Below are positions 1-27,885 of a DNA stretch of 64,000 nucleotides, one piece after another (the stretch's first letter is position 1; each line of letters begins with the position of its first letter). This DNA comes from Thalassolituus maritimus (GTDB lineage Bacteria; Pseudomonadota; Gammaproteobacteria; Pseudomonadales; Oceanobacteraceae). The stretch lies in the NCBI RefSeq assembly GCF_900156675.1, contig NZ_FTOH01000001.1, positions 558,001-622,000 of the forward strand, read 5' to 3'. The translations under genes and the position numbers were made by a program. Under the pieces are notes generated by a model. It made no database searches. It saw only the letters and a list, made by a program, of their open reading frames with translations, and had not been told where the DNA came from.

Positions 1-708
1 GAACTGCTGTCGAGCTTTAATGCGCGTGGTGCGAGTTCGTTCTCGTTGAAGGAGGGTAAGCCTGCGCTTAAGTTCTACTCTGTCAGCCCTTATAACGCCT
101 ATAACCTGTTTGTGGTCGACTCGGTGCTTTCGAGTTGGGCACACATTCTTGGGGTTATCAGCGGGCAAACCGACGGTATCCTTGAATCTGTCGATATTGA
201 GTTTTCAGATCCGGGCTATGCGGATGTTTATCGTCGCTACTTTAAATGTCCGGTGAATTTTGGCGCTGGCTCTAATCGATTAGTGCTCCAAAATGAAGCA
301 CTGAATTTACCCGTGATCCAAAGTTGCCACTCGGTTTATGAAGGCTTGAAACGTCAGGCAGAACGAGAACTCGATAGGGTAAGGCTAGGTCTCAGCGTGA
401 CAGAGCAGGTAGCCCGCACTGTGGCGCCGCTGCTGGACGGTGAGACACCTGAGCTGAGTAAGGTTGCCAGTCGACTGAATATGGCGCCCTGGACGCTTCG
501 CAGGCGCCTTCAGGCTGAAGGAAAGACCTATCAGGATGTACTCAACGCAACGCGCAAAGATCTGGCGGTAAGTTATATCAGGGATACGTCTCTGACATTA
601 GGGGAAATAGCGTATTTGCTGGGGTTTGGGTCTGCTGCGGCATTCCAGCGCGCATTCCGGCGCTGGACCGGCGAGGCGCCGGGCCGCTATAGGGAAAACT
701 GCCGCTAG
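1..708 (+). CDS. AraC/XylS-family transcriptional regulator (5' end cut by window edge)
   Basis: The reading frame is open to the left edge of the window, so the N-terminus is missing and no true start can be given; a TTG at 46 is only an internal codon. The C-terminal third carries the two helix-turn-helix motifs of the AraC DNA-binding domain: the first around LSKVASRLNMAPWTLRRRL, the second around LGEIAYLLGFGSAAAFQRAF followed by the family-typical RRWTGEAPGRYR ending. The preceding part looks like the arabinose-binding-like N-terminal domain of the OruR/ArgR-like AraC group that senses small organic molecules. Target genes cannot be told because the upstream side lies outside the window. 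Confidence 0.9.
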   Translation, partial: ELLSSFNARGASSFSLKEGKPALKFYSVSPYNAYNLFVVDSVLSSWAHILGVISGQTDGILESVDIEFSDPGYADVYRRYFKCPVNFGAGSNRLVLQNEALNLPVIQSCHSVYEGLKRQAERELDRVRLGLSVTEQVARTVAPLLDGETPELSKVASRLNMAPWTLRRRLQAEGKTYQDVLNATRKDLAVSYIRDTSLTLGEIAYLLGFGSAAAFQRAFRRWTGEAPGRYRENCR

Positions 709-1149: not shown

Positions 1150-1226
1150 TGGCGGACTGGACGGGACTCGAACCCGCGACCCCCGGCGTGACAGGCCGGT
1201 ATTCTAACCAACTGAACTACCAGTCC
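1150..1226 (-). tRNA. tRNA-Asp(GTC), copy 1
   Basis: Read on the minus strand this is a complete 77-nt tRNA: acceptor stem GGACTGG pairing with CCAGTCC, discriminator G, encoded CCA, anticodon loop CTGTCAC with anticodon GTC, and T-loop GTTCGAGTC. It closely matches the enterobacterial tRNA-Asp. It is the promoter-distal gene of the six-tRNA operon and sits 28 bases downstream of tRNA-Val copy 1. Confidence 0.97.
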
Positions 1227-1254: not shown

Positions 1255-1330
1255 TGGTGGGTGATGACGGGATCGAACCGCCGACCCTCTGCTTGTAAGG
1301 CAGATGCTCTCCCAGCTGAGCTAATCACCC
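1255..1330 (-). tRNA. tRNA-Val(TAC), copy 1
   Basis: A complete 76-nt tRNA on the minus strand: acceptor stem GGGTGAT/ATCACCC, D-loop AGCTCAGCTGGGAGAGC, anticodon loop CTTACAA (anticodon TAC), T-loop GGTTCGATCCC and encoded ACCA. It matches the classic bacterial tRNA-Val(UAC). It alternates with tRNA-Asp genes in a repeated Val-Asp arrangement. Confidence 0.97.
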
Positions 1331-1531: not shown

Positions 1532-1691
1532 TGGCGGACTGGACGGGACCCGACTGGGCCGGCATTCCGGACCGCGACCAAGGCTAAATTAATCAGCGTC
1601 TTAGTCAATGTTGGCGGACTGGACGGGACCCGACTGGGCCGGCATTCCGGACCGCGACCAAGGCTAAATTAATCAGCGTCTTAGTCAATGT
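1532..1691 (-). repeat. two tandem 80-bp repeats carrying the 3' end of tRNA-Asp
   Basis: Two perfect 80-bp units (1532-1611 and 1612-1691) follow directly on the 3' end of tRNA-Asp copy 2 in transcription direction. Each unit ends with the last 18 bases of tRNA-Asp, GTCCCGTCCAGTCCGCCA, preceded by 62 bases unlike the tRNA except for a short GGTCGCGG stretch and a CCGG-aatg-CCGG hairpin. The arrangement resembles the tyrT locus of E. coli, where long repeats downstream of the tRNA each contain about 19 bases of its 3' end. The units lack acceptor 5' half, D-arm and anticodon arm and cannot form a tRNA. Confidence 0.9.
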
Positions 1692-1768
1692 TGGCGGACT
1701 GGACGGGACTCGAACCCGCGACCCCCGGCGTGACAGGCCGGTATTCTAACCAACTGAACTACCAGTCC
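1692..1768 (-). tRNA. tRNA-Asp(GTC), copy 2
   Basis: A complete tRNA-Asp identical over the tRNA body to copies 1 and 3, with anticodon GTC and encoded CCA (1692-1694). Its 3' end is immediately followed by the two tandem 80-bp units that repeat its last 18 bases. Five bases separate it from tRNA-Val copy 2. Confidence 0.97.
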
Positions 1769-1773
1769 ACATT

Positions 1774-1849
1774 TGGTGGGTGATGACGGGATCGAACCGC
1801 CGACCCTCTGCTTGTAAGGCAGATGCTCTCCCAGCTGAGCTAATCACCC
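1774..1849 (-). tRNA. tRNA-Val(TAC), copy 2
   Basis: A complete tRNA-Val(TAC) identical to the other two copies, with encoded CCA at 1774-1776. It is followed in transcription direction after 5 bases by tRNA-Asp copy 2 and preceded by the second 119-bp spacer repeat. Confidence 0.97.
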
Positions 1850-1860
1850 AAACTCGTTTA

Positions 1861-1979
1861 TCGCTTCGCTGATTGAGTTGCTACTGCGTTGTTCCTCGCT
1901 CGTCCCTTCGCCTACCAGTAGGTATGTCTCAGGGTACTCGCTGCGGTACGCCTTGTATCATTCTCAATCATCAAACCGC
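1861..1979 (-). repeat. 119-bp tRNA-operon spacer repeat, copy 2
   Basis: This is the second copy of the spacer described at 1342-1460, with the same terminal inverted repeat and central CCTAC/GTAGG hairpin and two base differences. It lies between tRNA-Asp copy 3 and tRNA-Val copy 2, the same relative place as copy 1, which supports unequal recombination between tRNA genes as the origin of the cluster. Confidence 0.85.
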
Positions 1980-2022: not shown

Positions 2023-2099
2023 TGGCGGACTGGACGGGACTCGAACCCGCGACCCCCGGCGTGACAGGCCGGTATTCTAACCAACTGAACTACCAGTCC
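2023..2099 (-). tRNA. tRNA-Asp(GTC), copy 3
   Basis: A complete tRNA-Asp with GGACTGG/CCAGTCC acceptor stem, anticodon GTC and encoded CCA (2023-2025). It is the second gene of the operon, 42 bases downstream of the promoter-proximal tRNA-Val. Confidence 0.97.
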
Positions 2100-2141: not shown

Positions 2142-2217
2142 TGGTGGGTGATGACGGGATCGAACCGCCGACCCTCTGCTTGTAAGGCAGATGCTCTCCC
2201 AGCTGAGCTAATCACCC
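2142..2217 (-). tRNA. tRNA-Val(TAC), copy 3 (promoter-proximal)
   Basis: A complete tRNA-Val(TAC) with encoded CCA at 2142-2144 and 5' end at 2217. It is the first gene of the six-tRNA operon; the -10 element of the promoter lies about 20 bases upstream. Confidence 0.97.
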
Positions 2218-2237: not shown

Positions 2238-2265
2238 ATTCTACTCGCGTCAGGGCGGATGTCAA
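2238..2265 (-). promoter_or_regulatory. sigma-70 promoter of the tRNA operon
   Basis: On the minus strand a consensus TTGACA (-35, 2260-2265) is followed after 16 bases by TAGAAT (-10, 2238-2243), close to the ideal spacing. The stretch between the -10 and the first tRNA begins with a GC-rich discriminator (GCGACCTCGC), typical of stable-RNA promoters under stringent control. Predicted transcription start is around 2230. Confidence 0.8.
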
Positions 2266-26946: not shown

Positions 26947-27885
26947 ATGATGAAGCGTAAGGTATTAATTTTTGCGACGATATTTTTTTCCGTCGTCGTC
27001 GGTGCTCATGAGGCTACGACTCAAACGCTGAAGAGACAAGATGGATCTCTCGTTGATTACTATCTTCTGAATAAATCAGATGCCTCCCCGAGTGATACGC
27101 TATTGCTTATTTTACAAGGTTCAGATTGCAACAGTGTCTTACAGGTAGAATCGATATTTTCAAACTTAAAGAACGTGTGGCCAGAGGCAGATCTTCTTCT
27201 TATCGAGAAGTATGGGATAACGCGTGAGTTAGCATTCAGTTCCGATGCAGAACGGTCTGACTGTCCGCATGCGTATATTCAGAACGATAGCCCGAAGCAG
27301 CGGGTTTCAGATATTAAGGCAGTTTTACGGGAGGTACGCAGAGATTTTGCTTACCCGAGATTCATTGTTGTGGGAGGGAGTGAAGGCGCTCTCGTGGCTA
27401 ATCTCCTGGCGGCGGAAATAGACACTATCGATGCGACTGTTGCTTTTAACGGCGGTGGCCAGATGTTCGTTGATGATGTTCTGCATAGTATCGATGCGGG
27501 CGCTGCTAACAGCGAGGAAGCAGTAGAGGCCGCTCAGGGTTTTCTTGGGTTTTCAAATCATGTCCTGAACAGCGAGCCATCAGATTTGCAAGTCAGTGGT
27601 CACGGGTATCACTGGTGGTATCAAATGCTGTCGATAGACCAGCTTGAGATTCTCAAAGAAGTGAATACGCCTTTATTGCTTATTCAGGGAGGACGGGATT
27701 CTTCTGTTTCGCCAGCCAAAGTAAGCGAGATGATTGAGTCTCTGCGGCAAGTTCAGAAAAATAATATCGAGTTCATAGCATACGAGAATCTTGATCACAC
27801 CTTTAATGACAGTCTGGGCCTGAGTCATCGAAAGTCAGTGGTGGAAGATATACATAGTTGGCTTGATAGTACGCTGAATCAATAG
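26947..27885 (+). CDS. secreted alpha/beta hydrolase
   Basis: A 312-residue protein; ATG 26947 starts a signal peptide (KRKVLIFATIFFSVVVGAHEA). The alpha/beta hydrolase triad is visible: nucleophile Ser in the elbow VVGGSEGAL, acid Asp in LLIQGGRDSSVSP, and His in NLDHTFND near the C-terminus. The conserved CPHAY and CN residues suggest a disulfide. The layout resembles prolyl-oligopeptidase-like esterases. The substrate is unknown. It ends at the terminator at 27896. Confidence 0.82.
   Translation: MMKRKVLIFATIFFSVVVGAHEATTQTLKRQDGSLVDYYLLNKSDASPSDTLLLILQGSDCNSVLQVESIFSNLKNVWPEADLLLIEKYGITRELAFSSDAERSDCPHAYIQNDSPKQRVSDIKAVLREVRRDFAYPRFIVVGGSEGALVANLLAAEIDTIDATVAFNGGGQMFVDDVLHSIDAGAANSEEAVEAAQGFLGFSNHVLNSEPSDLQVSGHGYHWWYQMLSIDQLEILKEVNTPLLLIQGGRDSSVSPAKVSEMIESLRQVQKNNIEFIAYENLDHTFNDSLGLSHRKSVVEDIHSWLDSTLNQ

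Follow-up and report, generated by a model that had tools for sequence, protein, structure and literature searches.

Repeats that carry the 3' end of a tRNA have so far been a curiosity of the tyrT operon of Escherichia coli. To our knowledge, the rtT repeats of this operon are confined to enterics. The tRNA-Pro/His cluster of Photobacterium phosphoreum likewise contains repeats with tRNA-like fragments and pseudo-tRNAs within a tRNA operon, involving other tRNAs and other sequences than those described here. The external guide sequences of RNase P, which are engineered and aimed at mRNAs, combine a T-arm with an acceptor 3' strand and NCCA and lack the 5' acceptor strand. This is the layout of the units reported below, which differ from such guides in having a hairpin in the T-loop and, in many cases, a mismatch in the T-stem. 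A further RNA made alongside tRNAs, the 3'ETS-leuZ of E. coli, is a trailer that binds small RNAs and is not known to possess either a copy of the tRNA 3' end or a conserved fold of the kind seen in these units. As far as the account in PMC5286369 goes, it arises as a by-product of a polycistronic tRNA precursor and acts as a sponge (Lalaouna 2015). Lastly, the tRNA-Other of Bacillus cereus is a non-translating tRNA-like element within a larger RNA, for which a regulatory role has been proposed (PMC3399842). It is a single complete pseudo-tRNA beside a genomic island in an unrelated phylum and, unlike the new units, features neither tandem copies nor a T-loop hairpin (PMC3399842).

Repeats of tRNA tails are already a known kind of element; what appears to be new is a family of such units with a covarying fold. 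In the following, we describe this family, starting from a pair of units in Thalassolituus maritimus.

A Val-Asp tRNA operon with two repeat units

The window, i.e. the whole stretch of DNA analysed, spans 64,000 nt. ARAGORN and Rfam, run over its full length, find an operon of the order Val-Asp-Val-Asp-[units]-Val-Asp on the minus strand (Table 1). The initial annotation had noticed two perfect 80-nt units directly 3' of the CCA of the second tRNA-Asp copy, which the sequence, ARAGORN and a repeat search bear out; each is indeed made up of a 62-nt part and GTCCCGTCCAGTCCGCCA, which is the 3'-terminal 18 nt of that tRNA. Their placement inside a multi-tRNA operon also stands, as they are flanked by tRNA genes behind a sole strong promoter. 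In a consensus scan of positions 1000-2400, the sequence TTGACA-16-TAGAAT ahead of the first tRNA-Val copy is the only promoter-like site, so that the simplest reading is a single tRNA precursor, which would include the units.

Table 1. Window coordinates of the tRNA operon and its two repeat units
Feature	Position	Strand	Basis
Sigma-70 promoter of the tRNA operon (TTGACA-16-TAGAAT)	2238..2265	-	consensus scan, 11/12 matches
tRNA-Val(UAC) copy 1	2142..2217	-	ARAGORN, Rfam
tRNA-Asp(GUC) copy 1, without a unit behind it	2023..2099	-	ARAGORN, Rfam
tRNA-Val(UAC) copy 2	1774..1849	-	ARAGORN, Rfam
tRNA-Asp(GUC) copy 2, parent of both units' 3' ends	1692..1768	-	ARAGORN, Rfam
Unit 1, 80 nt: 62 nt + copy of tRNA-Asp nt 59-76	1612..1691	-	sequence, repeat search
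Hairpin P2 of unit 1 (CCGG AATG CCGG), inside the T-loop copy, covarying across genera	1639..1650	-	
Linker of unit 1 (CCCAG): base 4 pairs with P2 loop base 3, base 1 with base 5	1634..1638	-	
Tail of unit 1: last 18 nt of tRNA-Asp including CCA	1612..1629	-	sequence
Unit 2, 80 nt, identical to unit 1	1532..1611	-	sequence, repeat search
Hairpin P2 of unit 2	1559..1570	-	as unit 1
Linker of unit 2 (CCCAG)	1554..1558	-	as unit 1
Tail of unit 2: last 18 nt of tRNA-Asp including CCA	1532..1549	-	sequence
tRNA-Val(UAC) copy 3, same operon, downstream of the units	1255..1330	-	ARAGORN, Rfam
tRNA-Asp(GUC) copy 3, final tRNA of the operon	1150..1226	-	ARAGORN, Rfam

No unit follows tRNA-Asp copies 1 and 3 of the home genome, and a genome search with the unit otherwise matches only the 3' parts of other tRNA-Asp genes. 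Dispersal of the REP or MITE type was rejected, the home genome having the unit at this site alone. With two perfect 80-mers here and homologues of the same layout in other genera, the repeats are far beyond chance, and the 62-nt part contains a core conserved between genera, which sets it apart from random spacer.

Relatives of the units in other genera

A look for the unit in other genomes, which the initial annotation had suggested as a check, led to units of the same layout in other genera by three routes: DNA search, covariance models and a pattern scan. The DNA search, which covered 56 genomes, revealed that the (Val-Asp)n operon of other species has comparable units behind other Asp copies and with other sequences. 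For instance, a genome of the same genus (G007) has one unit behind one tRNA-Asp and two behind the next, a genome of another genus (G010) has two 80-nt units behind its last tRNA-Asp, G016 has one unit of 106 nt, and the units of G014 are degenerate. Side by side, the Asp units share a common core of GGTCGCGg, a hairpin, YCCxR and TCG, which is then followed by the tRNA tail. A covariance model of this core (R1) also matches units in the same bacterial family that lie behind tRNA-Gly(GCC); these belong to Glu-Gly or Gly-Cys-Leu operons, and their tail is that of tRNA-Gly. One weak R1 match (L031 in G018) sits in an apparent purL coding sequence and was treated as chance.

The combined model R2, built from 17 Asp and Gly units, has matches in at least 26 of 392 genomes of the order (a lower bound under strict filters), distributed over 15 genera and four families; in 369 genomes of the class, it has no match beyond that order. 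We also scanned 84,980 species genomes for an exact pattern with 22 fixed bases and an estimated ~0.2 chance matches. This returned 111 stretches, and the 80 of these that were listed are from Halomonadaceae, Alcanivorax/Alloalcanivorax, Saccharospirillum, Oceanobacter, Thalassolituus and Aliikangiella. The units, which are 80-119 nt long across the family, represent a widespread element in marine and halophilic bacteria that covers several Pseudomonadales-type families plus Aliikangiella.

Their presence is patchy within genera, which means that the element is not essential. The congener G001 has a nearly identical flanking operon but lacks the block at this site, and the number of tandem copies per site ranges from one to five, the latter in Aliikangiella with a 107-nt period. 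Gain, loss and tandem multiplication of units take place at the CCA of the tRNA.

Rfam 15 assigns no family above the gathering threshold to the units and reports only tRNA in the window and in eight loci of other genera; even at E<=10, the units score nowhere within positions 1000-2400. The open-access literature that was searched contains no description of such units, and the family is apparently undescribed so far.

The closest described counterpart is E. coli tyrTV, to which the initial annotation had likened the units. In architecture, the likeness is real: there, too, tandem units in the same transcript follow a tRNA gene, and each of them ends in about 19 nt of its 3' end including CCA. 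It does not extend to homology, for which covariance models were applied in both directions. RtT (RF00391) finds all four tyrTV units of E. coli K-12 in a positive control (4 matches, 133-138 bits), but has no match in the window at gathering, nor at E<=10 within 1000-2400, and R2 conversely has no match in E. coli tyrTV. Furthermore, the E. coli unit is 178 nt long, compared to 80-119 nt in the new family, its parent is tRNA-Tyr rather than Asp or Gly, and it has a strand complementary to its own tail (GGGGAAGGAT/ATCCTTCCCC). In the new units, such complementarity between spacer and tail is weaker than in shuffled sequences (4.4 vs 5.1 nt). Despite the shared arrangement of units behind a tRNA and ending in its 3' end, it is thus hardly conceivable that the new units belong to the rtT family. 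As neither model detects homology in either direction, they look like a second, independent case of tRNA-tail repeats, and the two would work alike at most in principle.

Fold, tail and parent tRNA

Compared with tRNA-Gly, a unit reads ..GGTCGCGAG[CTGGAACGCCAGCCCGG]TCGAATCTCGTTTCCCGCTCCA; it covers the variable loop through CCA, interrupted in the T-loop by an insertion of about 17 nt. The core accordingly comprises a copy of the T-arm, the T-loop of which is interrupted by a hairpin (P2) and a linker that contacts the hairpin loop; the acceptor 3' strand and NCCA of the parent tRNA come next. The 5' strand of the T-arm is present in all units. Further upstream, units of several Halomonadaceae retain a match to the D-loop of tRNA-Gly, and one of them (L120) also to the entire anticodon arm (z 13.7; median of all spacers 0.5); the window's own units show no remnants of this kind. 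A 5' acceptor strand is missing and the spacer offers no substitute, for which reason pseudo-tRNAs lacking that strand are the best description of the units. As tRNA cloverleaves (RF00005), they are called neither by ARAGORN nor by Rfam, even at E<=10.

The tail is the most strictly kept part of the unit, the T-arm less so. Acceptor strand and NCCA (positions 66-76) differ from the parent at 54 of 1562 positions (3.5%; 96.5% kept), the 3' strand of the T-stem (61-65) differs at 83 of 710 (11.7%), and position 50 alone at 31%. All four of the T-stem pairs counted (49-52) are intact in 70 of 142 units; a perfect T-arm is therefore not required, given that about half of the units have one or more of these pairs broken.

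P2 never loses its pairing: its four base pairs form in 392 of 392 cells, 390 times as Watson-Crick and twice as G-U pairs, although pairing was not a selection criterion. Base 3 of its loop and base 4 of the linker form Watson-Crick pairs (C-G, U-A or G-C) in 96 of 98 cases, and linker bases 1 and 5 pair in 93 of 98. The five exceptions are all C-A, with no U-G among them, a bias that one would not expect of a pair in a sense-strand RNA. An unbiased mutual-information ranking of all columns places P2, the loop3-linker4 and linker1-linker5 pairs and the T-stem pair 50-64 at the top. Among 55 distinct cores, 98.7% of the cells pair and 68 cells have double-sided changes; none of 500 shuffles, which ignore relatedness, reaches these values, and registers slid along the alignment yield no more than seven double-sided cells. 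Different pair states recur in the window's family, in Halomonadaceae and in the Alcanivorax group.

Five Halomonadaceae loci (L063, L068, L114, L130 and L156) have a second hairpin inserted behind the first linker, and these second hairpins, judged by eye, mostly obey the same loop-linker pairing rule, which suggests that hairpin and linker could be a repeatable module. An upstream hairpin, P1, is strong in the window unit and in G007 and visible in some Gly units; it was dropped as a conserved feature of the family, as 86 distinct spacers fold no better than shuffled ones (mean z -0.1).

We also counted the tRNAs associated with the 107 pattern units in the 80 of 111 stretches listed. For 103 of these units, a tRNA lies within 600 nt upstream, namely Gly(GCC) in 101 cases and Asp(GUC) in two, and no other; the remaining four sit at contig or locus starts. 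Conversely, units are found behind 103 of the 153 tRNA-Gly(GCC) genes at these loci, a rate distinct from the genome-wide frequency as the loci were picked for having a unit, and behind three of the four Asp genes, but behind none of the Glu (0/134), Cys (0/25), Leu (0/25), Ala (0/13) and Ser (0/16) genes. In the same set, the last 18 nt are identical to the parent tRNA in 79 of 103 units and the last 11 in 94 of 103. The unit tails track lineage variants of the parent, i.e. ..CCAGTCCGCCA vs ..CCGTTCCGCCA for Asp and ..CTCG, ..CTCC or ..CTCT for Gly, and do so even within one operon: in L051, the two Asp copies differ in their T-stems, and the unit behind each has the T-stem of its own copy, the match being complete except for one base at the start of the tail.

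One unit pair with a tRNA-Asp tail (L076/L191; G153:C32:1610187) has no tRNA within 1 kb and sits behind a tRNA-like promoter sequence (TTGACT..TAAAATGCGCAGCAC); it could represent either a free-standing RNA gene or the relic of a lost tRNA. Orphan units with their own promoter were not retained as a general feature, with L076 found in one genome only and the second candidate, L190, having a tRNA-Gly.

Origin, working mode and genomic setting

Given their fold and position, we consider it highly probable that both units belong to a conserved family of structured, tRNA-derived RNA elements that lie directly downstream of tRNA-Asp(GUC) or tRNA-Gly(GCC) and are co-transcribed with this parent tRNA. 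The fold would work as RNA, either in the tRNA precursor or released from it, and each unit would offer a second, unpaired tRNA tail. This tail may compete, or serve as a decoy, for the 5' acceptor strand of the parent tRNA or for the enzymes that handle its 3' end, with RNase P, RNase E and exonucleases, the CCA enzyme and the synthetase as candidates, and the competition might tune the maturation of that one parent tRNA. We tentatively regard such a decoy or competitor as the most likely working mode, possible rather than probable in itself; for identity and working mode taken as a whole, we see an even chance. Both the release of small RNAs and the substrate mimicry that the initial annotation had envisaged are compatible with the conserved RNA fold and the least-diverged acceptor strand and CCA. 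Computed by partition function, the tRNA 5' strand prefers the unit tail (0.88 vs 0.05); we discarded this strand competition as evidence because shuffled cores do the same, the preference being generic to any duplicated tail.

A bolder and rather doubtful version is a natural, tRNA-encoded tail mimic with a new T-loop-insertion fold, made of hairpin and loop-linker contact, and with the acceptor 3' strand and NCCA of its parent tRNA. It would feed back on, or guide, the processing of this tRNA, whether as an external guide of natural origin or by competing for RNase P and the 3' maturases, and would be kept specifically at Gly(GCC) and Asp(GUC). Overall, the data suggest that mimics of the tRNA tail may help cells to make or control Gly and Asp tRNAs. 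The identity of the tail itself could result from gene conversion rather than selection.

Two accounts dispense with an RNA role altogether, and we regard both as rather unlikely. The units might be DNA-level cassettes, that is, remnants or small non-autonomous elements that entered and multiplied at the tRNA 3' end, through a site-specific tyrosine integrase of the T-loop class or through homologous recombination across the shared 18-22 nt. Where elements integrate at tRNA genes, the identity block usually runs from the T-loop to CCA, and the units do present such a block beside a tRNA gene, along with an empty site in a relative, a clean presence or absence between congeners, tandem arrays and a native flank displaced behind the last unit. 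However, the covariation in hairpin, loop-linker and linker is not expected of an att scar, and the units are not dispersed in the genome. Likewise, no integrase is found among seven Pfam-scanned proteins encoded downstream of terminal units, where the genes are those for an ABC transporter, an FMN oxidoreductase, an MFS protein, a chemoreceptor, a TRAP subunit, a thymidine kinase and a HAD hydrolase; no unit occurs in 50,697 phage records, and plasmid records yield one weak match, in a 1.8-Mb Halomonas 'plasmid' record. Alternatively, the units could be neutral pseudogenes, left behind when a tandem copy of the tRNA gene lost its 5' half to decay while gene conversion with the intact gene homogenised its 3' end, as the recognisable D-loop and anticodon arm of some units, the patchy distribution and the decay of the T-stem would have it. 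Yet an insertion and linker common to several families, with a P2 pairing that is never broken, fit poorly with neutrality, as does the restriction to Gly(GCC) and Asp(GUC); moreover, conversion tracts should fade towards the CCA boundary, whereas acceptor strand and CCA are kept better than the adjacent T-stem.

If the units do act as RNA, they might instead do so in trans, with freed 50-80-nt RNAs that end in the tRNA 3' end pairing with mRNAs or sponging small RNAs. This role, to which we give somewhat more credence while still doubting it, has been proposed for rtT, whose architecture is similar, and has precedents in a tRNA-spacer sponge, as outlined in PMC5286369 (Lalaouna 2015), and in a pseudo-tRNA inside a regulatory RNA (PMC3399842); the unit pair without a nearby tRNA behind a tRNA-like promoter sequence would also fit. 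Such an orphan is found in one genome only, though, and the unpaired spacer is not conserved, so that no conserved seed is visible except for the tRNA tail. Mis-assembly, finally, which the initial annotation had named as grounds for refutation, is a concern insofar as the genome is a draft of 30 contigs and perfect repeats are liable to copy-number errors. While the exact count of two does rest on this draft, an artefact is extremely improbable for the element as such, since dozens of other assemblies, made independently and including several complete ones, have it with diverged sequences.

Our preferred reading, a family of structured RNA elements, has a broader implication. The unrelated family of the same layout, the covarying fold, the strict ties to two tRNAs and the tails that track their parents suggest that it is useful to copy a tRNA's own tail into its precursor, and that this arose more than once. 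Among the carriers are species of Halomonas, Alcanivorax and Thalassolituus that can be cultured, in which processing, release and deletion phenotypes are directly testable, and the old tyrT puzzle thereby becomes testable in many culturable species.

The window has several further features. An AraC-family regulator (~130-705, plus strand) is convergent with the tRNA operon, and a tRNA-Asp(atc) called by ARAGORN at 27170-27259 (plus strand) without support from Rfam is probably a false positive. About 350 nt downstream of the operon, at 725-802 on the minus strand, a 26-aa Asp/Glu-rich microprotein (MSDYIEDLLDVGFDDYEDDCDDAVEM) is preceded by a strong Shine-Dalgarno sequence. It has no Pfam match, is found with the same length in 27 of 44 family genomes and six of eight genera (62-100% identity), and adjoins the tRNA operon in several loci, though not in all (e.g. 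G007). Lastly, tRNA-Val copies 3 and 2 are each preceded by a spacer element (1346-1464 and 1865-1979, minus strand) that measures about 115 nt and has GATTGAG/CTCAATC at its ends. Its two copies are 98% identical, it is also present in relatives' operons, and a 47-nt core recurs with 83-88% identity at another site of the home genome (G000:C7:312152) and in congeners.
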